Assembly (NCBI RefSeq): GCF_007753095.1
Contig: NZ_CP036348.1
Coordinates: 806,001-870,000 of the forward strand
Reading direction: 5' to 3'
Length of the DNA: 64,000 nucleotides
Source of the DNA: Rosistilla carotiformis
GTDB taxonomy: Bacteria > Planctomycetota > Planctomycetia > Pirellulales > Pirellulaceae
Shown here: positions 31,013 to 52,340 of the stretch, one piece after another
Layout of the letters: the number at the start of each line of letters is the position of its first letter
How positions within the stretch are numbered: position 1 is the stretch's first letter
The notes under the pieces: generated by a model
The model's database searches: none
What the model was told of the DNA's origin: nothing
What the model saw: the letters and a program-made list of their open reading frames with translations, nothing else
Position numbers and translations under genes: made by a program

Positions 31013-32689
31013 CTACTCACCCTGCCACGTTCGCGTATTCAGTTTGCCCGCTTTCAGTTCGGCCTGGCGGCGCTGAAGGTATTGGTGGGAGATCTTCCTC
31101 GCCTTGGCGCGATCGGCTTCGTCGTAGTCCCAGAACTCCTGCACGATCGCCTCGCACTTCGGATGATGGCTGCCGTCGTCTCCCACGCTTTGACGCAGCC
31201 GAGCCAGTTGAGCTTTCAGCTCAGTCACCCGTTCCGCTTGGTTGGGATCGTCGTAGAGGTTCCTCGTCTCCTGCGGATCGTTCACCAAATCGTAAAGCTC
31301 CCAGCCCGCCGGCGTTTGATATCCGCCGTCGTAATTGCAGCCGTAGAAGTAGATCAGCTTGTGCGTCTTGGTTCGAATGCCTAAATGCCCCGGATTGTCG
31401 TGGTGAGCCATGTGCATCCAATAGCGATAATAAGCGGCTTGCTTCCAGTCGGCCGGTTCGTTGCCGGTCTCCAGCAGCGACTTAAACGAACGCCCCTGTA
31501 CCGAAGCGGGGATCTCGGCGCCCGCCAACGCGAGCATCGTCGGGGCGTAGTCGACGTTTTCGATGATCGTGTCGTACCGCTTCCCCGCCGGAACGCTTTT
31601 GGGATAGCGGACCAGAAACGGCATCCGCTGCGATTCTTCGAACATCCAACGCTTGTCCTGGTAGTCGTGCTCGCCCAGCATAAAACCCTGGTCGCCGGTG
31701 TAGATGATGATCGTGTTGTCGATCTGCCCCGTTTGTTCCAGGTGTTGGAATAACCGGCCCAGGTTGTCGTCGATCCCTTTGACGCAGCGGAGGTACTTCT
31801 TTAAGTAGGCCTGGTAGGCGAGCCGTGTGTTTTCTTCGTCGCTGTATTTGGCGGCATCAAAGTCCTTGGGGAACTCGTTAGGATAGAGTGACGGTAGATC
31901 ACCAAGGTAGGAACGCCGCAGATTGCGTCCGCCGATCGACGTGCCGATATGAGGCAGCAGTTCGTCGTTGGCGCCTCGCGTGGCCAGCGATCCAAACTTG
32001 GGATCGCGATGCCACAGCGTATCGGGCTCGGGGATCTGGACGTCGGCCAGGTACGACTCGTAGCGCTCGGCGTTTTCGAAGTAATCGTGAGGCGCTTTAT
32101 AATGATGCATCAAGAAGAATGGCTGCTCTTGATTCCAGCCATCTTTCAACCAATCGAGCGTCAGGTCGGTGATCGCATCGCTGGAATGTTTGCCCGGAAA
32201 CTGTAGCTTGTTTTTCCCCCACGGCTTGTCGCCACGAACCAAAAACTCCGGGTCGTGGTATTTCCCTTGGCCGGGGAGCACACAGTAATAATCGAAGTCC
32301 GCCGGTTCATGGTGCAGGTGCCACTTGCCGATCATCGCGGTTTGGTAACCCGCCTTGCCCATCTGAATCGCCAGCATCTGTTCGCCGGGAGCCACGCGGC
32401 CGCTGAGATCAAACGCGCCGTTGGTGTGGTTGTATTGGCCCGTCATCACGCACGCCCGCGATGGCGAACAGATCGAATTGGTGCAGAAGGCGTTGGTGAA
32501 CAACGCACCCTCTTTCGCCAATCGATCGATGTGAGGCGTCGGGGCAACGTTGGCTAGGCGGCTGCCGTAAGCGGAGATCGCCGGCGCGGCGTGATCGTCC
32601 GACATGATGTAAAGAATGTTGGGGCGATCGGCGGTCATCGCGATCGTTGGTACAGAGACGAGCAAAAACAGCAGCAACGTCCGCATCAT
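31013..32689 (-). CDS. Secreted type I sulfatase, CSPSR active site
   Basis: A 558-residue exported sulfatase. A signal peptide (about 3-19) is followed by DRPNILYIMSDDHAAPAISAYG. The formylglycine motif C74-S-P-S-R78 is canonical and is followed by ACVMTGQYNHTNG. GKWHLHH (about 120) and YTGDQGFMLGEHDYQDKRW (about 330) supply further catalytic and metal residues. DxHxxxx-type C-terminal segments and an Arg/Lys-rich tail complete it. The first of two adjacent ATGs is preferred: a GGAG sits eight bases upstream. The substrate is unknown, probably a sulfated polysaccharide. Confidence 0.93.
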   Translation of the reverse strand: MMRTLLLFLLVSVPTIAMTADRPNILYIMSDDHAAPAISAYGSRLANVAPTPHIDRLAKEGALFTNAFCTNSICSPSRACVMTGQYNHTNGAFDLSGRVAPGEQMLAIQMGKAGYQTAMIGKWHLHHEPADFDYYCVLPGQGKYHDPEFLVRGDKPWGKNKLQFPGKHSSDAITDLTLDWLKDGWNQEQPFFLMHHYKAPHDYFENAERYESYLADVQIPEPDTLWHRDPKFGSLATRGANDELLPHIGTSIGGRNLRRSYLGDLPSLYPNEFPKDFDAAKYSDEENTRLAYQAYLKKYLRCVKGIDDNLGRLFQHLEQTGQIDNTIIIYTGDQGFMLGEHDYQDKRWMFEESQRMPFLVRYPKSVPAGKRYDTIIENVDYAPTMLALAGAEIPASVQGRSFKSLLETGNEPADWKQAAYYRYWMHMAHHDNPGHLGIRTKTHKLIYFYGCNYDGGYQTPAGWELYDLVNDPQETRNLYDDPNQAERVTELKAQLARLRQSVGDDGSHHPKCEAIVQEFWDYDEADRAKARKISHQYLQRRQAELKAGKLNTRTWQGE

Positions 32690-33050
32690 AAAATCGACTC
32701 CTGTTGAGGGCAGTTCAAAGTCAGCGCTAACCGACCAAGCGAGTCTAATCGTTCGACGGCGCGATGAATCAACCTAGTGGCTTCTGGCGGGGAAATAAAG
32801 CAACCGTGCGCGTTGCGGAGTCCGCAATCGCTCGGATTCGAACGTCCGCGATGCGCGTTCTGATCGCTTTCGCTCTGCGGCGATATCGTTTTCCGTTGGG
32901 AGCGCGGCAGATTCTGCGGCGGCAGCCCGGCGGGCGACATCGCATGCATTGGCTCGACAACGTAGTTCGGCGCTCGGCGGCGCGATACAATCGCAGAGGA
33001 GTGTGGTGGGCGTTTGACGTGGTGACACGCAGGAATGGAGGGATCGCGAT
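32690..33050. other. Divergent intergenic region, sulfatase / envelope operon
   Basis: About 360 bases between the divergent sulfatase and the large DUF4175-like gene. Several short open frames are present on both strands, none with recognisable features. It must contain both promoters; I could not single out hexamers. Confidence 0.4.
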
Positions 33051-36000
33051 TTGGATGCTCGACTCAAAGATCTACTGGAATCGGTTGCCAGTCGCTTGCG
33101 CCGTCAGCGGTTGCTGTGGCTATTAGCAGCGGTCTGGCTGGCGACAGCTTTCGTTGCCCTCTCGTTGCTGTGGCAGGTCCGCAGCGGAGAGCTTTCCGCG
33201 AACGTTGCCCTTGGCGTTGCGGCAGCCACGCTGGGCGGGCTGTTGGTCGCAGCCTGCGCTTTGAGTCTCTGTTCGTTCCGCGATTCCAAAGCTGTTGCCG
33301 CACGGATCGAAGCCCACTTTCCCACGCTGCGACAACGCTTGTTGACCGCTGTCGATCAACGCCCCGCCGACATCAACACGCCGATGAACTATCTGCAGAC
33401 GGCGGTGATCGATGAGACGCTGCACCATGGCACGACGCATCGGTGGACATTGGCTGTCAACCAATTGGCGACACGATTCGCCTGGGCGGTCAACGCGCTG
33501 GCGCTCGGCTTGCTGGTATTGGTTGGGATCGGGTTGAATTCTCAGCTGGCAAACGCCAAGCACCGCGGCACCGATCCGGCCTCGCTCGCGGAACTGCAGC
33601 CATCGGCGGAGATTACCGTCGAGCCAGGGGATGTCGAGATCGAACGGGGCAGCAACCTCGTCGTCACCGCTCGGTTCGGAGCTAACGATCTAGGGCTGTT
33701 ACCCAGCGAGGTTCAATTGATCGCTCGCCGTGGCGACCAGCAGACGCAGTCCGCGATGACGCGGAACCTGAGCGATCCCGTCTTTGGTGGCTATCTGAAC
33801 GAAGTGGTCGAGTCGACGAATTACGAAGTGCAATACGACGGCCAGGTGTCGCCGACATATAAGGTCACCGTCTTCGATTACCCTCAGCTGCAGCGATCCG
33901 ACGCGCGGCTGGTCTTTCCGCAGTACACGGGACTCGAGGAAAAGCAAGTCGACGACACGCGGCGCGTCAGCGCGGTCGAGGGGACTCAGCTGACCTGGAT
34001 CTGCCAGCTGAACAAGCCGGTCGCCAGTTGCACGTTGGTCGACGATGAGGGCAAGGTCTTGCCGCTGTCGGCCGACGCGGAAAACCCGTTGCACTATCGG
34101 GCCACGGTCACGCTGCAGCAATCGACCCGTTGGACGTTGAAGTTGGTCGACGCCGAGGGACGCGAGAACAAATATCCGCCCGAACTGGTAGCTCGCGTTC
34201 AGCCCAATCAACCGCCGGTAATGAAATTGGTCGCCGCCCGAGACGTTCGCGTCTCGCCGTTGGAAGAGCTGCAAGTTGGGGCTCGGTTTCGCGACGACTT
34301 CGGTCTGTTGCGATATGGGCTCGCCTATGCGATGGCGGGGGGGGAGCCGCACGAGATCGTGCTCGGAGAAACGACGCAGCGGAAAGAGGAGCGTGAAGCG
34401 TCGCCGATGATCGACTTCGAAGCGCTCGCTGCCGAACCCGATCAATTGTTGTCGTATCATTTTTGGGCCGAAGATTTTGATGCCCAAGGTCAGCCGCGGC
34501 GATCCGAGAGCGACATGTTCTTCGCCGAAGTCCGGCACTTCGAAGAGATCTTTCGCGAAGGGGAACCGCCCGCTGGCGGCGAGCCACCTCCTTCGAGCCC
34601 CAACGCGCAACAAGCCGACGAACTGGCGGAATTGCAAAAGCAGATCATCACCGGAACTTGGAACCTGATTCGCCGCGAAACCGCCGCGGAACCATCGGCT
34701 GCTTTTGCGGACGACGTCGCGTTGCTGCACGAATCGCAACAGGCGGCGATCGAGCAACTGCAGGAGCTGGCGGCGGAGCTGACCGATCCGCAGTCCAAAG
34801 AATATGTGCAGGCGGCTGACGCGTTCATGCAGAAAGCTGTCACGCAATTGGCGGCTGTCGCCGATGCAAACTCCCCTCCCCTGCTCTCCCCCGCGTTGGC
34901 ATCGGAGCAAGCGGCTTATCAAGGGCTGCTGAAATTGAGGGCTCGCGAATTCGAAGTCTCTCGACAGCAGCAATCGCAATCGAAATCGAGCAGTTCATCG
35001 CAACAGCAACGCCAACAACAGTTGGATCAACTGGAACTGAAGAACGACGAAAACCGATACGAGACCGAACAGCAGGCCCGTTCCGAAGAGGAGCAACAGG
35101 CGACCGAGATGCGGCAGGTGTTGAACCGGTTGCGTGAACTCGCTCAGCGGCAAGAGGACCTCAACAAACAATTGAAGCAGCTGCAGTCGGCGCTCGAAGC
35201 TGCTCAGACCGAACAGGAGCGAGAAGAGATCCAACGGCAATTAAAACGGCTTCGCGAAGAGCAGCAGGAACTGTTGCGCGACACCGACGAATTGGCCGAT
35301 CGGATGAATGCCTCGCAGGATCAACCGGCGACGGCAGACCAACAGGAACAGCTGGCTGAGACCCGCGAGAACGTACGCCAGTCGAGCGAAGCGTTGGAGC
35401 AGCAGGATGTCTCGCAGGCGTTGTCGGCGGGCACGCGAGCCGAACGCGAGTTCAAGCAGATGCGGGATGAAGTGCGGCAGCAGGCGGCGGGCGATTTCGC
35501 CGAATCGATGCAGCAGATGCAACAACAGGCTCAACAGTTGCAAGAGCAACAGGAAGCGATCGGCCAGGAGATCGAACAGCTGGAGGAGACAAATCCCGGA
35601 TCGCTGCGAAGCCCGCAGGATCGCGATCAGATTCGCGATCGGATCGGTCAGCAACGGCAGCAGCTTGCCGATTTGCTCGATCGCATGGAGCGAACGGTCA
35701 GCGATGCGGAGACCTCTGAACCTCTGTTGGCGGAAAAACTGTACGACTCGTTCCGCAAGACACAGCAACGCCGCGTCGATCAGCAGTTGGATATGACCAA
35801 CCAGTTGCTCGAACGGGGACTCGATCCCGACGCGAGTCAGGCGACCGCGGCAGCCGAAGCGGGGATCGGTCAGTTGCGGGAAGAGATCGACGAAGCCGCT
35901 CAAAGCGTCCTCGGCGATCCAACTGAAAGCTTGCGGCGGGCGCTCGGCGAACTGGAGCAGGTCTCGGATCAGTTGAGCGACGAGATTCGGGAGAACGATC

Positions 36001-37010
36001 CGCGTGGCGAAGGGCAACCCGGCGAAGGGCAACCCGGCGAAGGACAACCTGGCGAAGGGCAACCTGGTGAAGGGCAACCTGGCGAAGGGCAACCTGGTGA
36101 AGGGCAACCTGGCGAAGGGCAACCTGGCGAAGGGCAACCTGGCGAAGGGCAACCTGGCGAAGGGCAACCTGGCGAAGGGCAACCTGGCGAAGGGCAACCT
36201 GGCGAAGGACAACCTGGCGAAGGGCAACCTGGAGAAGGACAACCCGGTCAGTCGCAGCCTGGTCAGTCACAACCTGGTCAGTCACAACCTGGTCAGTCAC
36301 AACCTGGTCAGTCACAACCTGGTCAGTCACAACCTGGTCAGTCACAACCTGGTCAGTCACAACCTGGTCAGTCACAACCTGGTCAGTCACAGCCTGGTCA
36401 ATCGCAACCTGGTCAATCGCAACCTGGTCAATCGCAACCTGGTCAATCGCAACCTGGTCAATCGCAACCTGGTCAATCGCAACCTGGGCAGTCACAGCCT
36501 GGTCAGTCACAGCCTGGTCAGTCACAGCCTGGTCAGTCGCAGCCGGGACAGTCGCAACCGGGACAGTCGCAACCGGGACAGTCGCAACCGGGACAGTCGC
36601 AACCGGGGCGTGGGGGAAGTGGTGGTGGAATCGAAGGGTTTGCCGAGGCGGTGGAGGGACGTGGTGCGGCACCGCTGACCGGTGAAGGTTTCCGTGAGTG
36701 GAGCGATCGATTGCGGGAGATTGAAGAGCTGGTCGAAGATCCCGAGTTGCGATCGCAAGTCGCTCAGGTTCGCGAAGCGGCACGCGAGGTCCGGATCAAT
36801 TTGAAGCGGCACAGCGAGTCGCCGCAATGGAATTTGGTTCGCGAAATGATCGCTCGTCCGCTGGAAGAACTCAAGCAACGCGTGGCCGAAGAACTGCTGC
36901 GGCGGTCGGCCGATCGCAACGCCTTGGTGCCGATCGATCGCGATCCGGTCCCCGTCGAATTCGCCGATCAGGTCGAGAAGTATTACGAGAAGCTAGGCAG
37001 CGGTAAGTAG
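33051..37010 (+). CDS. Large DUF4175-like membrane protein with coiled coil and pentapeptide repeats
   Basis: A 1319-residue protein. Three membrane helices (about 23-41, 47-68, 142-161) precede a large periplasmic-type region (to about 530) with beta-rich repeats (PGDVEIERGSNLVVTARFG). A long Gln/Glu-rich coiled coil follows (about 630-980), then residues 986-1185 with 16 GEGQP-type and 24 GQSQP-type pentapeptides, and a C-terminal helical domain. This matches DUF4175-like proteins found next to VWA proteins in planctomycetes and other bacteria. The start is TTG behind GGAGG. It heads a three-gene cluster, so an envelope complex is likely; the function is unknown. Confidence 0.75.
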   Translation: MDARLKDLLESVASRLRRQRLLWLLAAVWLATAFVALSLLWQVRSGELSANVALGVAAATLGGLLVAACALSLCSFRDSKAVAARIEAHFPTLRQRLLTAVDQRPADINTPMNYLQTAVIDETLHHGTTHRWTLAVNQLATRFAWAVNALALGLLVLVGIGLNSQLANAKHRGTDPASLAELQPSAEITVEPGDVEIERGSNLVVTARFGANDLGLLPSEVQLIARRGDQQTQSAMTRNLSDPVFGGYLNEVVESTNYEVQYDGQVSPTYKVTVFDYPQLQRSDARLVFPQYTGLEEKQVDDTRRVSAVEGTQLTWICQLNKPVASCTLVDDEGKVLPLSADAENPLHYRATVTLQQSTRWTLKLVDAEGRENKYPPELVARVQPNQPPVMKLVAARDVRVSPLEELQVGARFRDDFGLLRYGLAYAMAGGEPHEIVLGETTQRKEEREASPMIDFEALAAEPDQLLSYHFWAEDFDAQGQPRRSESDMFFAEVRHFEEIFREGEPPAGGEPPPSSPNAQQADELAELQKQIITGTWNLIRRETAAEPSAAFADDVALLHESQQAAIEQLQELAAELTDPQSKEYVQAADAFMQKAVTQLAAVADANSPPLLSPALASEQAAYQGLLKLRAREFEVSRQQQSQSKSSSSSQQQRQQQLDQLELKNDENRYETEQQARSEEEQQATEMRQVLNRLRELAQRQEDLNKQLKQLQSALEAAQTEQEREEIQRQLKRLREEQQELLRDTDELADRMNASQDQPATADQQEQLAETRENVRQSSEALEQQDVSQALSAGTRAEREFKQMRDEVRQQAAGDFAESMQQMQQQAQQLQEQQEAIGQEIEQLEETNPGSLRSPQDRDQIRDRIGQQRQQLADLLDRMERTVSDAETSEPLLAEKLYDSFRKTQQRRVDQQLDMTNQLLERGLDPDASQATAAAEAGIGQLREEIDEAAQSVLGDPTESLRRALGELEQVSDQLSDEIRENDPRGEGQPGEGQPGEGQPGEGQPGEGQPGEGQPGEGQPGEGQPGEGQPGEGQPGEGQPGEGQPGEGQPGEGQPGEGQPGEGQPGQSQPGQSQPGQSQPGQSQPGQSQPGQSQPGQSQPGQSQPGQSQPGQSQPGQSQPGQSQPGQSQPGQSQPGQSQPGQSQPGQSQPGQSQPGQSQPGQSQPGQSQPGQSQPGQSQPGQSQPGRGGSGGGIEGFAEAVEGRGAAPLTGEGFREWSDRLREIEELVEDPELRSQVAQVREAAREVRINLKRHSESPQWNLVREMIARPLEELKQRVAEELLRRSADRNALVPIDRDPVPVEFADQVEKYYEKLGSGK
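36006..36605 (+). repeat. 15-bp coding tandem repeats, 16 + 24 units
   Basis: Sixteen units of GGCGAAGGGCAACCT type (peptide GEGQP) are followed without a break by 24 units of GGTCAGTCACAACCT type (peptide GQSQP). Sub-blocks are near-identical and differ at single third positions, which points to recent expansion by slippage or unequal exchange. The two halves differ in two of five residues: acidic becomes polar. Confidence 0.97.
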
Positions 37011-37088
37011 TTTTAATTTATTCAATCCTGGTTGCTGCGTTCATCGGTCCGTGGTCGCGAGAAGTGTCCCAGCAAGTGTAAGTAGTTT

Positions 37089-39443
37089 ATGTTTGATTCG
37101 ATCCTGATCGCCGCTCCGCAATGGACCGCTGCCGCCGTGGCAATCTGCCTGTTGTCGCTGTTTGTCGTGGCCTGGGCGTATTGGCGACGTGGGCGATCGT
37201 CGCGGCGCGGGCCACTGATTTTTGCGGGCCTACTGAAATGGATCGCGATCGCCGCTTTGGCGTTGTGCCTGTTGCAACCGATGTTGGAAAGTCAGCGTCC
37301 GCGACCGCATGCGAATCTGATCGGCGTGGTCGTCGATAACAGTCGCAGCATGCAGATCCGCACCCCCGGTCAATCGCAGCCGCGCAGCGAGCGATTGGCC
37401 GCGGTCTTAAAACAGGATGCGGATTGGCAGGTTCGGCTATCGCAAGACTTTGATGTGCGACGCTATGCCTTCGATCGCAGCTTGCAAAACGTCGACGATC
37501 TATCGGCACTCGAATTTGACGGCGCATCGTCTTCGTTGACCGCGACGCTAACGACCTTGGCCGCTCGTTTTCGCGATCGTCCCGTCGCCGGCCTGATGTT
37601 GTTCACCGATGGGAACGCAACCGACCTGGCCGACACCGGATTCGATTGGTCCTCGCTTGGATTTCCTCTTTATCTGGTCACCGATTCGGTCGATCAAGCG
37701 ATCGCGGACCTCAAGATCGATCAGGTCAGCACCGCCCAAACCAACTTTGAAGCCTCTCCCGTGACGGTCACTGCGAAGCTATCGGCCACCGGTTTAAAAG
37801 AATCGACGGCTGTCGTCCGCTTGCTCGATGCAGAGGGCGTTGCGGTGGAGGAGCAGGAGTTGGAATTGACGCAGGCGAAGCCGGCCGCCGACGTCGAGTT
37901 CCGCTTTCGCCCGAAGAAATCGGGGCTGCAATTCTATTCGATCGATACGTTTCCTAAATCGCAACGGACTGCCTATTTGGAAGGCGAAACGAAGGTCGAA
38001 GCAACGCTTGCGAACAATTTTCGCCTGTTGACGATCGATCGCGATCAAGGTCCCTATCGCGTGCTGTATGTTGCGGGGCGGCCGAACTGGGAATTCAAAT
38101 TCCTGCGGCGGGCGTTGCAGGAGGATGATGAAATCCGCTTGGTGGGACTGTTGCGAATCGCTCGCAAAGAGCCCAAGTTCAGCTTCCGCGATCGCGGCGT
38201 CAATTCTTCCAATCCGTTGTTTTCGGGGTTTGATGAAAACGAAGAGGAGAGTGCCGAACAATACGATGAACCGGTGCTGTTGCGATTGGGCGTCGATGAA
38301 GCGGAGCAGCTGAGTAAAGGTTTTCCACGCCAAGCCGAGGAGTTGTTCGGATACCACGCGATCATCTTGGACGACGTCGATGCCGATTTTTTTACTCAGG
38401 ATCAGATGCTGATGTTGCGTCAATTCGTCAGCACTCGCGGTGGCGGCCTGCTGATGCTCGGCGGCCAGGAGTCCTTCGCCGGTGGCGATTATGAACACAC
38501 GCCGTTGGCCGATCTGATGCCGGTCTATCTCCCTCGCGGCAACGCGCGTTCGGGCGGAACGGTCGCCCGGATGGAGCTGTCACGCGAGGGATGGCTGCAA
38601 CCGTGGTTGAGGTTGCGAGAGACGGAAGCGGCAGAAAAGAAACGCTTTGCCGAGATGCCCGAGTTCGGGACACTCAATCGCGTCGGCGATGTGAAGCCTG
38701 GGGCGTCGATGTTGGCAGCCGCCGATACGGGGGATCGCCAGCAGCCGGCACTTGTCGTCCAACGCTATGGCAAGGGAAGGTCGGGAGCGCTGTTGATCGG
38801 CGATTTGTGGCGATGGGGCATGCGGCGAAAGCCTGGCGAAAACGAAGACCTGCAGCAGGTCTGGCGACAGACGATTCGATGGATGATCGCCGACGTGCCG
38901 CGCGGCGTCGAGATCGATCTCGAGGAATCCAAAGACAGCAGCAAGCCGATCGAGATCGCCGTGACGGTTCGCAATCCGGAGTTCCTGCCGTTGGATAACG
39001 CCTCGGTCGCCCTGACGGTGGTGCAGCCCGACGGCGAAGAGATGCAGTTGCCGACGCAGCCCAGCGACCAAGTCGCCGGCGTCTATACCGCCAGCTACTG
39101 GCCCAGCAAAGATGGAGCGTATCGCGTAAAGGTCGTCGCGACGGGGCCCGATGGCAGCGACGTCGGCAGCCAGCAGGCAGGTTGGACTACCGAGACGGCG
39201 ACCGCTGAATTCCAGCGGCTTGCCGTTAACAAGGACTTGCTGCAACAGATCGCCGATCAAACCGGGGGCGAAGTGATTTCGCAGGACGACCTCGATTCGT
39301 TTGTTGCGAATTTGCACAACAAGAAGATTCCACTGACTCAGCGTCACCTCGCTCCGCTGTGGCATGGTCCGTGGGTTTTGATCTTCGCTCTGGCCTGTTT
39401 GTGTGGCGAATGGGGCGTTCGCCGTTTTCATGGGATGCCCTAA
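37089..39443 (+). CDS. Membrane VWA/GATase-like protein
   Basis: A 784-residue protein. Two N-terminal helices (about 13-31, 44-63) are followed by a VWA-like domain with a MIDAS motif D83-N-S-R-S87 and TDGN near 173. A class I glutamine-amidotransferase-like domain follows (YRVLYVAGRPNWEFKF near 320; FVSTRGGGLLMLGGQESFAGG near 450), and a last helix near 760. This combination is typical of BatA-like proteins in MoxR/VWA clusters, thought to act in envelope maintenance or chaperoning. It starts 79 bases after the large repeat protein and precedes the caspase-like protein. The GATase-like part probably does not transfer ammonia; no catalytic Cys triad was seen. Confidence 0.85.
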   Translation: MFDSILIAAPQWTAAAVAICLLSLFVVAWAYWRRGRSSRRGPLIFAGLLKWIAIAALALCLLQPMLESQRPRPHANLIGVVVDNSRSMQIRTPGQSQPRSERLAAVLKQDADWQVRLSQDFDVRRYAFDRSLQNVDDLSALEFDGASSSLTATLTTLAARFRDRPVAGLMLFTDGNATDLADTGFDWSSLGFPLYLVTDSVDQAIADLKIDQVSTAQTNFEASPVTVTAKLSATGLKESTAVVRLLDAEGVAVEEQELELTQAKPAADVEFRFRPKKSGLQFYSIDTFPKSQRTAYLEGETKVEATLANNFRLLTIDRDQGPYRVLYVAGRPNWEFKFLRRALQEDDEIRLVGLLRIARKEPKFSFRDRGVNSSNPLFSGFDENEEESAEQYDEPVLLRLGVDEAEQLSKGFPRQAEELFGYHAIILDDVDADFFTQDQMLMLRQFVSTRGGGLLMLGGQESFAGGDYEHTPLADLMPVYLPRGNARSGGTVARMELSREGWLQPWLRLRETEAAEKKRFAEMPEFGTLNRVGDVKPGASMLAAADTGDRQQPALVVQRYGKGRSGALLIGDLWRWGMRRKPGENEDLQQVWRQTIRWMIADVPRGVEIDLEESKDSSKPIEIAVTVRNPEFLPLDNASVALTVVQPDGEEMQLPTQPSDQVAGVYTASYWPSKDGAYRVKVVATGPDGSDVGSQQAGWTTETATAEFQRLAVNKDLLQQIADQTGGEVISQDDLDSFVANLHNKKIPLTQRHLAPLWHGPWVLIFALACLCGEWGVRRFHGMP

Positions 39444-39503
39444 AGCAAGACGCATTGGATGCATGGTCCGCAAATCCCGAAACTCGACAAGACTGAGACA
39501 CCT

Positions 39504-40538
39504 ATGATTCGTCGTATCCCATCGCTGGCTTGCCTGATTGCGGTGTTGATGTTCGTTCGCGTCGCCCGCAGCGACGATGCCCCCCCTGCCCCGTCGCAGG
39601 TGTTGGTCGTCGTGGGAGCCGGCGGCAGCGAAGAATATCAGACAGCGTTTGCGACTTGGGCCGATCGCTGGAAATCGGCGGCTGGTTTGCTCGACGGGGC
39701 GAGTTATCACGAGATTGGCCGTGAAGAGGGGCAGAGTGATTCGAGCGACAAGGATCGCTTGAACGAGCGACTGGCGGAGCTGAGTGATTTAAAAGCCGAA
39801 GCGGTTTGGGTCGTGTTGATCGGCCACGGTACGTTCGACGGCAAGTCGGCGAAGTTGAATCTCCGCGGCCCCGATGTTTCGGCGGAGGAGTTGAGCGGCT
39901 GGATCGAGCCGATGCGGAGTCCTTTGATTGTGGTGAATTGCGCGTCGGCGAGCGGTCCGTTTATCAATCGGTTGTCGGCCGCGGGACGGACGATCGTAAC
40001 GGCGACCAAAAGTGGACAGGAGCAGAACTACGCTCGCTTCGGCGACTATCTGTCGCAAGCGATTTCGGACATCGCCGCCGATCTAGACCACGACGATGAA
40101 GTCTCGCTATTGGAGGCCTTCCTGAGTGCGTCGGATCAGGTTGCCAAGTTCTATGAATCGGAGAACCGAATCGCCACCGAACATGCGTTGATCGACGACA
40201 GTGGTGATCGCTTGGGAACTCCGGCGACGATGTTTCAAGGGACCTCGGCCGTTGCGGTCCCCCAGCCCAAGGCGGCTCGCGACGGCGGTGTGGCCGCGCG
40301 GCGGGTGATCTTTCAATCGCCGCAGGCGGTTGTGATGAGCCCGGCCCAGCGGGAATCGCGGGCCGCGATCGAAACGGAGATCGATCGACTGAAGCTGCGG
40401 AAATCGGAACTCGGCACGGATCCGTACTTCGCGCAACTGGAGCCTTTGATGCTTCAGCTGGCGGAATTGTACGCCGCCGCCGAAGCGGAAACGTCGGGCG
40501 ATTCGCAGGGCGATCGGTCGGGGACTGACAAACGCTAG
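39504..40538 (+). CDS. Secreted caspase-fold (clan CD) peptidase-like protein
   Basis: A 344-residue protein with a signal peptide (about 5-22). The domain that follows has the clan CD layout: a beta strand ending in I-G-H108-G109, and after about 36 residues a second strand ending in V-V-N-C146-A-S-A-S-G, the His/Cys dyad arrangement of caspases, legumain and gingipain. The C-terminal 100 residues are helical and charged. It is third in the cluster with the DUF4175-like and VWA proteins. Proteolytic activity is inferred from the motif pair only. The ATG at the signal peptide was preferred over one 15 codons upstream. Confidence 0.7.
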   Translation: MIRRIPSLACLIAVLMFVRVARSDDAPPAPSQVLVVVGAGGSEEYQTAFATWADRWKSAAGLLDGASYHEIGREEGQSDSSDKDRLNERLAELSDLKAEAVWVVLIGHGTFDGKSAKLNLRGPDVSAEELSGWIEPMRSPLIVVNCASASGPFINRLSAAGRTIVTATKSGQEQNYARFGDYLSQAISDIAADLDHDDEVSLLEAFLSASDQVAKFYESENRIATEHALIDDSGDRLGTPATMFQGTSAVAVPQPKAARDGGVAARRVIFQSPQAVVMSPAQRESRAAIETEIDRLKLRKSELGTDPYFAQLEPLMLQLAELYAAAEAETSGDSQGDRSGTDKR

Positions 40539-40765
40539 TGGGCTGCGGGTGCAGGCAGTCGATTCCACGCCGCTGATGGATCGATTGGCGCAAGTTGTGC
40601 TTTCAGTAACAGACGCAGCGAATAGGCGTTCTTTTCAGGCGGAACGTTGGGCGGTGCCCAATATCCATGCAGGGTTTGCCTGCAATTCGGACAGCCCTTC
40701 GCGCTGCCCGCTGTTTTTTGGGCACCTCGGGTGATTCCATTTCATCGTCGAATCGAGTGAAAGCG

Positions 40766-41176
40766 ATGGGCCAATCTTCTTATCTGTTTGAATCGATATT
40801 TGTCGGCGTCTTAGGAGTCGCGGTTGCGACTAGCGAATTTGCGGTGAAGGTTCCCTCGCCCGATGGCGTCGCGGAGTCGCCCGCCACGGCTGAAGAGGGC
40901 GTTCAGCTGACGGCGACACCGCGACCGGCAATTGCCGAGGGGGAAGTGGCGATTCCACAGTTCGAGGCCATGGCGGTACCGGTAGCGAAATCGGAGCCAC
41001 GGCGTTTACCTCCGATCGGGTCGGCGGTTGTCGAGCTGCCTGAAAGAGTGCGAGTGGAGAAGCCAGTCGTCGCGCCCCCGCACTATCCGACAGTGATCGA
41101 TGAAAATGGAATCGAGTGGAAGATTATCGATTCACGTCCCTGCGATCCAGCATTATGTCGGGGGCACGTTCAGTAG
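40766..41176 (+). CDS. Hypothetical protein, Pro/Ala/Val-rich
   Basis: A 136-residue protein of unknown family. A short hydrophobic N-terminus (about 8-24) could be a signal or anchor, and the rest is Pro/Ala/Glu-rich (VAKSEPRRLPPIGSAVVELP) with two Cys near the end (RPCDPALC). The ATG shows no strong ribosome site. It ends just before the next gene and may be co-transcribed with it. Moderately confident that it is real. Confidence 0.5.
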   Translation: MGQSSYLFESIFVGVLGVAVATSEFAVKVPSPDGVAESPATAEEGVQLTATPRPAIAEGEVAIPQFEAMAVPVAKSEPRRLPPIGSAVVELPERVRVEKPVVAPPHYPTVIDENGIEWKIIDSRPCDPALCRGHVQ

Positions 41177-41272
41177 CCCGTGGGTATTTTTTCAGTAGAC
41201 CCTTTTCGGCCGCCTGCCGTCACTTCGGCGGACCGGTTGTTTCTCAATTTCGATTTCAACAAGGATTCGCGG

Positions 41273-41596
41273 ATGACGTCAGATTTGGTTCAGGGACTTG
41301 TGGAAAACAAGGTGTTCATCAATGGTGTCGTCGCCGTAGGGTGTTTTCTTGTGATCGCACGGTTCTTCGCGTTTGTCAAAACGCAGTGGCGAGACGGCTT
41401 GAACCCTCATTTGGTCCCCTGCAGCCAGTGCGGCAAACGTTTGTCCGAATGGGCTTGTTTCTGCCCGGGCTGTGGTGTGCTGATCCAGGCAATCCCGACG
41501 GAAGAATCGAGCTCCTCGTTGGCGAAGACGCCGCTGCGTTTGGGGGCTGGGCCGTCGTTTCGTTCATCGCGGCCGCGACGTTCTCGTCAGCGATAG
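41273..41596 (+). CDS. Small membrane protein with zinc ribbon
   Basis: About 107 residues: one membrane helix (about 15-35), then a four-Cys zinc ribbon (CSQC...CPGC) and a Ser/Arg-rich tail. The ATG was chosen because the helix starts soon after it; a GTG 31 codons upstream (41180) would add a polar stretch. The family is unknown; zinc-ribbon membrane proteins are frequent in planctomycetes. Confidence 0.55.
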   Translation: MTSDLVQGLVENKVFINGVVAVGCFLVIARFFAFVKTQWRDGLNPHLVPCSQCGKRLSEWACFCPGCGVLIQAIPTEESSSSLAKTPLRLGAGPSFRSSRPRRSRQR

Positions 41597-49276: not shown

Positions 49277-51055
49277 TCAGTACTTCGGCAGGTCGATCAC
49301 GCCGTTCCAGTCCGACGGCGCGACGCGGCCGTGTTGAGCGATATAGACGGTTAGAAAGTCTTTGGCGCGGTCCGCCGCCGGGACCGCGTGCAAGCGTTCA
49401 AAGGCATCTCCCCAACGCTTGTCCAACAGCGCGTCGAGCGCCTCTTCATAGGTAGCGATGTCGGCATCGGAGAGCCCACACAGCGGACCCTCGGGAGGCA
49501 GGATCTGGCTGACGACCAGCGGCGTTGCGATTCCGGCCGGTCGGACCCGCGCCAGCCGCCGGATCCGGCATGTCGTTGGCGGGACAAAGTCGCGGATGTA
49601 TTGAGCGCTGATTTCGTCGACCAAGATCTCCGCCGACAACTGCTTTGTCATCCCTTCCAAGCGGCTGGCGAGGTTCACGACCGGGCCAAACGCTGTCACC
49701 TTCACCTGATCGACAGTCCCGATCCGCCCGGCGACAGCGCGTCCGCTGGAGATCCCAATGCCGCAGCGGAAATCGGCCAGTCGGCCATCGCTGCCGGCCG
49801 ATGTGAACTCTTCGAGAATCGCCAGTGCGGCGGCGCAAGCGCGGCCGGGCGCATCGACTTGAGCAATCGGCCAGCCCCAAAAACCCATCGCCGCGTCGCC
49901 GTGGAAGTCGCCGATCACGCCGCCCGAATCGAGGATGTGCCGCGTCATCACGCCGAGCGCTTCGCTGACCCGTTCCAACAATTCCAACAGCCGACCTTGC
50001 GCCTTTTCGCTCTGCCGCGAGAACCCGCGGAGATCGCAGAACAGGGCCGACAGTTCGGTCTCACGCGGCGCTAACGCGTCTTCGGTCTCTTTGTTCCCCA
50101 AGGCGTTCATCACCACCGGCGCGAAGAACTGCTGCAAGCCGGCCTGGCGTCGCTGCAGGGCTCGCATGTCGCGGAGATTGCCAATCGTGGTCGCGACCAA
50201 TTCGGAGAACTTTAAATCGTCCTGCAAGACGTCGGCAGCTTGCGACGCAGCGTTTCCAGCGGGGCCGTTGAACAGTCCCGCCATCGCTCCGGCGACATAC
50301 AGACCGAGCCCGTCGGTCCCCGAGATCACGGGGACGCAGAAGGCCCAGTCGATTCCGTCGAGCTGCGTGAACTGCGACTCCCGGCCGCCGTTCCACAAAT
50401 GCAAAATGCTCTCCCCCGATTCAAGCGACTTGCGGACCAAGCTGGCGCTGGGGGCGCGTTCCTGCGACGTCGGCACGCGGCTATCAAAATGCTGGACGCT
50501 GATTTCCGGAGTGTCGCTGCGATTGAGCCCGACGACGGCGACCGCCGATGCGCTGGGGATCCCTTGCAGCAGCACCGTCGCCACGCGAACCCATAGCTCT
50601 TGATCGCTGTTGCTGCCGGAGATCAGTTCGGGCAGCCGCCGCAGGACCTCGATCCGTTGGCCAGCATCGCGAAACGGATTGCGACGCAATTGTTGAGCGT
50701 CGAAGGCGTGTTGAGTTAGCTCGCCCTCGGGATCGGGCGAATCGAGCTGCGGGCGATCGACCAGGGTGAACGTTGTCGCGCCGACGACAAAATGTTCGCC
50801 GACCGAAATCAGAAACTCTTCGCTCTGCTGGCCCTTAAAAAAGATCGGGTTCCGGGCCGCGGCGATCCTGCGAATCCGCAGCTGTTTCCCCTCGCGCGTC
50901 ATGCGCACATGTTGCCGCGAGATCCGATCGTCCCAGGGAATCGACCACGTCCCCGCGTCGCGACCCAACACGATCGGGTGGCTGGCATCGAGGTCGGAGA
51001 CCGGTCGACGCCAACGGTCTTCGTTTCGCGAACCTTGGACAACCAGATCCAACAT
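49277..51055 (-). CDS. FHA-GAF-class III nucleotide cyclase
   Basis: A 592-residue signalling protein. An FHA domain (about 20-105; GRDAG 31-35, SRQHV 46-50) would bind phosphothreonine, and a GAF-like domain covers about 140-300. The class III cyclase domain (about 335-545) keeps both metal Asp residues (D341, D387), the substrate Lys (K452), and the transition-state N461 and R465. The position before VVN that usually helps select adenine is Pro instead of Asp, so nucleotide preference is uncertain. A C-terminal helix-rich tail follows. It lies seven bases after the BaiN-like gene. The ATG follows GGAGG. Confidence 0.82.
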   Translation of the reverse strand: MLDLVVQGSRNEDRWRRPVSDLDASHPIVLGRDAGTWSIPWDDRISRQHVRMTREGKQLRIRRIAAARNPIFFKGQQSEEFLISVGEHFVVGATTFTLVDRPQLDSPDPEGELTQHAFDAQQLRRNPFRDAGQRIEVLRRLPELISGSNSDQELWVRVATVLLQGIPSASAVAVVGLNRSDTPEISVQHFDSRVPTSQERAPSASLVRKSLESGESILHLWNGGRESQFTQLDGIDWAFCVPVISGTDGLGLYVAGAMAGLFNGPAGNAASQAADVLQDDLKFSELVATTIGNLRDMRALQRRQAGLQQFFAPVVMNALGNKETEDALAPRETELSALFCDLRGFSRQSEKAQGRLLELLERVSEALGVMTRHILDSGGVIGDFHGDAAMGFWGWPIAQVDAPGRACAAALAILEEFTSAGSDGRLADFRCGIGISSGRAVAGRIGTVDQVKVTAFGPVVNLASRLEGMTKQLSAEILVDEISAQYIRDFVPPTTCRIRRLARVRPAGIATPLVVSQILPPEGPLCGLSDADIATYEEALDALLDKRWGDAFERLHAVPAADRAKDFLTVYIAQHGRVAPSDWNGVIDLPKY

Positions 51056-51062
51056 CGATTTG

Positions 51063-52340
51063 CTAACCTCCCGCGTCGGCGTCGTGAAGCGACTCGGCGG
51101 CGCTGCGACCGGCAACCGTTCCCGTGCTAAACGCCGACTGGAAATTATATCCGCCGATCCAACCGTCGAGGTCCAGGATTTCTCCGGCAATGTACAATCC
51201 GTCGACGATTCGGCTGTGCATCGTCCGCGGATCGACTTCTTTTAACGAGACACCTCCGGCGGTCACCTCCGCCTTTTTAAAGCCCCGCGTCCCTTGGATC
51301 GGCATCCGATTTCGCAGCATCCCCTCGACCAGCAGCCGCCGGTTGGCTCCGCTTAATTCGGCTAGCGGTTTCTCTCCCGCGACTTGAGCTTGCTCGATCA
51401 GCGCGCTCGCCAGCCGTCGCGGCAGGATTTCGCAGAGTGCTTTGTCCAGCTGGCGGCTCGGTTCGCTCGCACGTTTGGCATCGAACCAGCTGTTCAGCCG
51501 ATCGTCGTTCCAGCCGGGCAACGCGTTGATCCGCAGCTCAATCGTCGACAGATCTTCGACGGCGGTGATCGCCCGGCTGACATCCATCGCCGTCGGGCCG
51601 GAGAATCCAAAGTGAGTGAACAGCAGCCCGCCGGTTCGCTGAGCCAGTTCACCCTTTTTCTTCGCAACGCCCGGTTTGCCTACGGTCACTTGGGCCTCGG
51701 GAAGCGTCAGCCCTTGCAGCTCCCACGTCCAAGCGCTGCCACCGACGATCGGGACCAGCGAAGGACGGGGCGTGAGGATCGTGTGCCCAAGTTGTTGCAG
51801 CCAGTTGTAGCCATCGCCGACGGTGCCGCAGCCTGGATACGACATTCCCCCCACGGTCACGATCACCGATCGGCAGTGCAGCGATTGGCCGTCGAGATCG
51901 ACTCGGAATCCGGTCTCGGTGCGAGTCAGGTTTTGGACCGCCGCTCCCAATCGCAGCGTCGCGCCACTTTCGGTCATCCGGCGCTGCAACGCTTGGCAGA
52001 CATCCAACGCCCTGTCGCTTTCGGGAAAGATCTTGCCGCCCGGTTCGACTTTGGTCGGGACGCCTAAGTCGCGGAACATTTGAACGACGTCGGTGGGAGA
52101 GAGTTCGGCGAGCGCTTGCCGCAGGAAGCGACCGTTCTTGCCGAAGGCTTCCATGATCCCGGCCGCATCGCAATCGTGAGTCACGTTGCAACGGGTACCG
52201 CCGGACATCAAGATCTTGACCCCCGCCTTGTTCGCTTTCTCCAAGACGCAGACGCTGCGGCCTCGGCGAGCTGCCTCGGCGGCGGCCATCATCCCGGCCG
52301 CACCGGCCCCAATTACTACGATGTCAAAGTCATTCTGCAT
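51063..52340 (-). CDS. BaiN/HI0933-like FAD flavoprotein
   Basis: A 425-residue NAD(P)/FAD-dependent oxidoreductase of the BaiN/HI0933 family. FAD-binding GAGAAGMMAAAEAARRG (about 12-28), GGTRCNVTHDC (about 47-57) and a C-terminal GEILDLDGWIGGYNFQ (about 385-400) are typical. Cytosolic; the physiological substrate is unclear in most bacteria. It starts at the ATG before the dinucleotide fold and is coupled to the cyclase gene. Confidence 0.87.
   Translation of the reverse strand: MQNDFDIVVIGAGAAGMMAAAEAARRGRSVCVLEKANKAGVKILMSGGTRCNVTHDCDAAGIMEAFGKNGRFLRQALAELSPTDVVQMFRDLGVPTKVEPGGKIFPESDRALDVCQALQRRMTESGATLRLGAAVQNLTRTETGFRVDLDGQSLHCRSVIVTVGGMSYPGCGTVGDGYNWLQQLGHTILTPRPSLVPIVGGSAWTWELQGLTLPEAQVTVGKPGVAKKKGELAQRTGGLLFTHFGFSGPTAMDVSRAITAVEDLSTIELRINALPGWNDDRLNSWFDAKRASEPSRQLDKALCEILPRRLASALIEQAQVAGEKPLAELSGANRRLLVEGMLRNRMPIQGTRGFKKAEVTAGGVSLKEVDPRTMHSRIVDGLYIAGEILDLDGWIGGYNFQSAFSTGTVAGRSAAESLHDADAGG

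Follow-up and report, generated by a model that had tools for sequence, protein, structure and literature searches.

We show by computational analysis that the product of a gene in a 64,000-nucleotide stretch of the Rosistilla carotiformis genome (contig NZ_CP036348.1, positions 806,001 to 870,000; hereafter the window) has a caspase/haemoglobinase fold, lacks the cysteine on which catalysis depends in that fold, and is genetically linked to a membrane VWA/GATase-like protein and a coiled-coil protein. The reading that best fits its sequence and model is that of a secreted pseudopeptidase, which we call pseudolegumain. Our preferred account, which we regard as probable but well short of secure, is that this legumain relative (clan CD, C13-like) has no catalytic activity, resides in the periplasm and serves a membrane complex of the MoxR/VWA (Bat-type) kind as a dedicated subunit without enzymatic function, where it would most likely bind or hold envelope proteins without cutting them. 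The features of the gene are the following.

39504..40538, + strand: pseudolegumain gene, 344 aa, caspase fold without the catalytic Cys (from the translation, the AlphaFold2 model, PDB matches and orthologue counts)
39504..39572, + strand: signal-peptide-like N-terminus, residues 1-23, MIRRIPSLACLIAVLMFVRVARS (from the sequence; cleavage site placed by eye)
39825..39827, + strand: codon of His108, the clan CD catalytic His position (90/90 orthologues; directly after model strand 101-106)
39939..39941, + strand: codon of Cys146, at -2 from the nucleophile column (Cys in 55/90 orthologues; otherwise Thr, Gly, Ala, Asn, Ser or Leu)
39945..39947, + strand: codon of Ser148, in the nucleophile column, where clan CD enzymes have their catalytic Cys (aligned with the Cys of the distant relatives L107, L108, L113, L117 and L119)
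40080..40115, + strand: EF-hand-like acidic loop D193-x-D195-x-D197-...-S201-..-E204, a predicted Ca2+ site (sequence pattern and model)
40176..40217, + strand: TEHA-DD(N/S)GD-G motif, residues 225-238 (common to orthologues and Cys-bearing relatives)
40341..40508, + strand: C-terminal helical hairpin, residues 280-335 (model and conservation; present in orthologues, gapped in paralogues)

The open reading frame, the His108-Gly109 pair and Cys146 all lie where the original prediction, made from the sequence by eye, had placed them. A second in-frame ATG is found upstream at 39459, and we favour the start at 39504 because translation from it gives a protein that opens like a typical signal peptide, with a hydrophobic core at this place in most orthologues. 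The signal peptide proposed earlier is likewise confirmed in its main features, positive charges at the N-terminus and a hydrophobic stretch after them, and 68 of the 78 ORFs examined from orthologues have a hydrophobic N-terminal core by a simple hydropathy test, used in place of a dedicated signal-peptide predictor; pseudolegumain is probably secreted. Lipoprotein anchoring was considered and rejected, since only 4 of these 78 ORFs contain a lipobox-like motif. The gene is single-copy in its own 7.44-Mb genome and has orthologues in 98 of 149 genomes of the same family, and within the genus an identity of 92-93% and a dN/dS of about 0.12-0.19 (two methods) point to purifying selection. Pseudolegumain has no NCBIfam match, and a sequence search of the PDB with the protein or its profile returned none. 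Elsewhere in the window, a 637-aa ORF on the minus strand (49277-51190) is by eye a putative FHA, GAF-like, adenylate/guanylate cyclase protein.

Structure prediction bears out the caspase fold that had been proposed. The AlphaFold2 model, computed from 61 aligned family sequences, has a mean pLDDT of 92.4 and a pTM of 0.88, and comparison with the PDB by Foldseek and VIA-align delimits the caspase/haemoglobinase fold to residues 28-276. The best match is legumain 4nol (Z 18.6, 197 residues aligned, rmsd 2.9); plant metacaspase-4 6w8r reaches Z 18.2, and 402 of 1000 chains align to the model at a Z of at least 8, the highest being 18.6. The model thereby assigns pseudolegumain to the clan CD fold with confidence. 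At the level of sequence profiles, the Pfam family Peptidase_C13 (PF01650) gives pseudolegumain 13.2 bits, below the cut-off of 22.8, and matches 2 of the 61 family members at E<=0.01, while PF00656 (Peptidase C14) does not match pseudolegumain at E<=1 and gives the distant relatives L107 and L112 21.5 and 21.1 bits, respectively, with a cut-off of 21.4. Pseudolegumain thus shares with legumain (C13) and plant metacaspases the clan CD fold and the catalytic His, but differs from them in lacking the catalytic Cys, in an identity of 11-13%, in falling short of the Pfam C13 cut-off, and in its additional C-terminal helical hairpin.

The catalytic Cys of clan CD peptidases is usually followed by x-Ser-Gly, and the corresponding stretch of pseudolegumain reads VVN-C146-A-S148-A-S150-G. 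The original prediction took Cys146 as the catalytic partner of His108, and this assignment was mistaken: HMM alignment, BLASTP of L107 and hhalign all place Ser148 in the nucleophile column. In the HMM alignment, that column holds the Cys of five distant relatives (L107, ACGSD; L108, ACCSD; L113, PCHSG; L117, SCYSG; L119, ACYSG), three of which score above the 22.8-bit cut-off of Pfam Peptidase_C13 (L107 with 28.2 bits, L117 with 24.1 and L119 with 34.9), and Cys146 therefore falls at -2. In clan CD enzymes the catalytic His lies at the end of strand 3 and the Cys at the end of strand 4, and in caspase-7 the residue at -2 from the catalytic Cys186, Gln184, is part of the S1 pocket (PMC4357240). 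Judged by alignment, Cys146 is an S1-pocket position and not the nucleophile. Across 90 distinct orthologues (77 from Planctomycetota; the other 13 come from genomes sampled around records whose titles name Verrucomicrobia), residue 148 is Ser in 81, Ala in eight and Pro in one; none has Cys. The original prediction was to count as refuted if close homologues lacked either residue of the dyad; Cys146 is missing from 35 of the 90, and every one retains the His.

Outside the nucleophile column, conservation is high. Ser150 is kept in 89 of 90 orthologues, and in the acidic loop D193, S201 and E204 occur in 90/90 and D195 and D197 in 89/90 each, with one Asn at either position. Nearly all 90 orthologues thereby show the D/D/D/S/E ligand pattern of EF-hand-like loops (positions 1, 3, 5, 9 and 12), and the model has a strand at 199-201 followed by a helix at 202-219, as such loops do. 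From this pattern and the model, we predict that residues 193-204 bind Ca2+.

Upstream of pseudolegumain lie the two genes with which it is associated.

33051..37010, + strand: coiled-coil protein (DUF4175-like), 1319 aa, with N-terminal hydrophobic segments, beta domain, coiled coil and repeats
36005..36604, + strand: two tandem arrays of a 15-nt unit (16 and 24 copies) that abut within the coiled-coil gene and encode GEGQP-type and then GQSQP-type repeats
37089..39443, + strand: membrane VWA/GATase-like protein, 784 aa (Pfam, alignment and model)
37335..37349, + strand: VWA MIDAS motif D83-x-S85-x-S87 (37 orthologues all have D83 and S85, and nearly all have S87)
38304..38885, + strand: GATase1-like domain, residues 406-599 (PF07090; conserved GGG-LMLGGQESF segment without Cys, by alignment)

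Both neighbours had been anticipated, and both descriptions held up, the VWA/GATase-like protein matching PF07090 with 35.6 bits (cut-off 27 bits) and the coiled-coil protein carrying its 15-nt-unit repeats. The DUF4175 label given to the latter is weak: PF13779, with a cut-off of 27.3 bits, does not match the window protein at E<=1, gives an orthologue 17.9 bits and is just passed by a paralogue at 28.5. The VWA/GATase-like protein consists of predicted transmembrane helices at 10-33 and 40-61, a VWA domain, a beta domain, the GATase1-like domain, an Ig-like domain and a C-terminal transmembrane helix at 761-780. Its model has a pLDDT of 85.8, and its domain assignments rest on Pfam and the motif because Foldseek returned only multi-domain beta-sandwich matches with a TM of about 0.1. 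The Arg-rich loop between the first two transmembrane helices and an invariant RR after the last one read as cytoplasmic by the positive-inside rule, which would place the bulk of the protein in the periplasm. Since the GGQESF segment of the GATase1-like domain is without Cys, as is the nucleophile column of pseudolegumain, the cluster seems to hold two enzyme folds that lack their usual nucleophile.

The partnership of these three genes is stronger than was first guessed. The usual order in relatives is DUF58, BatA, coiled-coil/DUF4175-like, VWA/GATase-like and pseudolegumain, and this five-gene order is common to Planctomycetota and Verrucomicrobiota. Contamination was rejected as the source of the Verrucomicrobia matches, which number 26 in 288 drawn genomes (group name taken from record titles), several of them deep inside large contigs. 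Both VWA and coil neighbours are present at 52 of 56 orthologue loci of at least 12 kb, and at 40 of 74 distinct junctions the four bases ATGA contain both the pseudolegumain start and the VWA stop codon; in the Rosistilla window the two genes are separated by 60 bases, without the overlap. Among the 149 family genomes, 96 have orthologues of both pseudolegumain and the VWA protein, two only the former, one only the latter and 50 neither, an agreement in 146 of 149 that is partly inherited among related genomes, whose relatedness the Fisher test leaves out of account and would inflate any p value. In some genomes the two genes are unlinked, lying about 0.5 Mb apart in the single contig of G011, and the persistence of co-occurrence there speaks for a shared function. 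The absence of both genes from a third of the family genomes means that this role is not universal. Within 32600-41300, no sigma-70-like promoter was found and terminator-like sites occurred at the level of shuffled sequence, both measures being uninformative in Planctomycetota.

BatA and/or DUF58 adjoin the cluster at most orthologue loci, and MoxR linkage was checked in the window's genome. There, the MoxR-DUF58-BatA genes (locus L160) occupy about 7.3-11.7 kb of contig 1, about 0.83 Mb from the window cluster. The cluster is a Bat-type MoxR/VWA operon whose upstream half has been split off in its own genome. It shares DUF58 and BatA, in most relatives, with Bat-type operons (MoxR, DUF58, BatA) and NorQ/NorD-like MoxR/VWA pairs, but it adds the coiled-coil/DUF4175-like, VWA-GATase-like and pseudolegumain genes. 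The same genome contains two more DUF58-BatA-VWA-coil-like clusters (L161 and L162), without pseudolegumain. The earlier suggestion of an envelope proteolysis or quality-control module can be kept in part: topology and operon content support an envelope location, whereas proteolysis by pseudolegumain is unsupported and a part in quality control is no more than a guess.

These data bear on several other ways of reading the protein. An active cysteine peptidase with a His108/Cys146 dyad would agree with the caspase fold, with the invariant His108 and with the Cys146 of 55 orthologues; yet the 35 orthologues without it include all 13 from Verrucomicrobia, at least 15 Cys/non-Cys changes are counted at position 146 on a tree computed without columns 145-149 (a rough count, given many weak branches), the Cys of the relatives lies two residues downstream, and the caspase-7 residue in the equivalent place lines the S1 pocket beside a catalytic Cys186 (PMC4357240), all of which makes the dyad extremely improbable. 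A serine-type hydrolase or transferase on the same fold, with Ser148 as nucleophile beside His108, could draw on Ser148 in 81 and His108 in all 90 orthologues. However, the same rough tree has at least six Ser/Ala changes at position 148, paralogues mostly have Pro there, and the four Ala148 genomes inspected (L049, L130, L140 and L141) all keep the coil-VWA-pseudolegumain cluster, so that replacement of Ser148 by Ala or Pro makes a serine nucleophile improbable; we know of no Ser-type clan CD peptidase. Moreover, the YS and HS variants of the caspase fold, the pseudo-orthocaspases, have Ser at the Cys position and are treated as inactive (PMC6426788). Pseudolegumain resembles them in this respect, but they are C14-type p20 domains, whereas it retains the His in 90/90 orthologues and is tied to a VWA operon; the text describing them makes no mention of planctomycetes (PMC6426788).

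Inactive caspase domains are also found in the MoxR-vWA ternary conflict systems (VMAP), where about 70% of the caspase domains that take the effector place in vWA components are reported to be inactive (PMC7159879), and the shared combination of MoxR and VWA partners with mostly inactive caspase domains raises the idea that pseudolegumain is a dominant-negative or peptide-binding effector of such an anti-phage system. We consider this very unlikely, given that pseudolegumain starts with a signal-peptide-like segment, is not fused to a vWA domain, is conserved, mostly single-copy and fixed in gene order over two phyla, and, like the VWA protein, has no match among the PADLOC profiles. Alternatively, the fold might be a structural remnant, kept only for the stability of the VWA partner and without any function of the groove, as the repeated decay of the active site and the translational coupling to the VWA gene would allow. 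This is unlikely rather than far-fetched: across both phyla there is hardly any variation in the acidic loop, in the TEHA-DDNGD motif or at His108 and Ser150, a degree of conservation seemingly beyond the needs of a scaffold. Pseudo-orthocaspases (PMC6426788) and the inactive caspase domains of conflict systems (PMC7159879) are already known. Among the open-access papers searched, we found none that describes the pseudolegumain family or reports a signal-peptide-bearing, His-retaining pseudolegumain in a conserved Bat-type operon of Planctomycetota and Verrucomicrobiota.

Relatives outside the window's class, elsewhere in Planctomycetota, offer clues to the origin of pseudolegumain. L107 (7315-8391) and L108 (7338-8546) combine His and Cys beside VWA and coil genes and are possibly active peptidases, judging from these residues; other distant cluster members have Ser, Pro or Gly at the nucleophile column. 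Either these proteins descend from an active peptidase, with several losses of the Cys, or the Cys was regained, the tree being too weak to choose between the two. Paralogous clusters (L055-L065, L124 and L125) comprise coil and VWA genes, a 127-aa BlaI-like repressor (PF03965), a BlaR1-like M56 membrane peptidase, which has WD40-like repeats in two examined, and a pseudolegumain paralogue with Thr146 (once Ala) and mostly Pro148. The paralogue lies beside the BlaI-like and BlaR1-like M56 genes at most of 11 family loci, and these neighbours hint that the paralogous version is controlled by an envelope signal. Caspase-like stretches also occur in larger proteins: five verrucomicrobial proteins of about 790-880 aa (L189-L193), four of them encoded beside DUF58-BatA, carry a degenerate caspase-like region at the N-terminus, and proteins of about 960-2010 aa from other families of Planctomycetota (L118-L123) have an internal caspase-like stretch, mostly without Cys at the nucleophile column, L119 having both the Cys and a clear Pfam C13 match.

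How might a dead legumain relative serve as a subunit of a Bat-type complex? We infer that pseudolegumain would be exported and sit beside the VWA/GATase-like and coiled-coil proteins, most of whose mass would be periplasmic on a positive-inside reading of their termini, the three forming a periplasmic head. Its groove could hold a peptide or the tail of a partner, uncut, with the His loop and the predicted Ca2+-binding loop keeping the groove in shape, and the C-terminal helical hairpin, restricted to orthologues, might dock onto a partner. MoxR ATPases and their VWA partners remodel target proteins, and in NorQ/NorD the action of the ATPase twists a linker of the VWA protein (PMC13036017); MoxR, with DUF58/BatA, may power remodelling from the cytoplasm in a similar way. 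Some observations count against this proposal: the invariant His108 could have retained a chemical role, the Ser148 of most orthologues is a possible weak nucleophile, and the His-Cys dyad kept in L107 and L108 may mean that catalysis matters in some lineages.

Automatic annotation, or a reading by eye, would give a secreted caspase-like peptidase, and an assay designed around Cys146 would mislead. As a pseudopeptidase that occupies one operon over two phyla and has Cys-bearing cousins in the same operon, pseudolegumain is a good natural case for what becomes of a protease fold after cutting stops. We tentatively raise the possibility that Planctomycetota and Verrucomicrobiota share a class of envelope machine whose MoxR/VWA motor would work with a Ca2+-binding dead legumain, the latter reading peptides or protein tails in the periplasm. 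This legumain would descend from an active peptidase of the same operon through a series from His-Cys (L107 and L108) to His-Ser and then His-Ala/Pro. Pseudolegumain also adds a tangible new part to the Bat-type MoxR/VWA systems, which are poorly understood.
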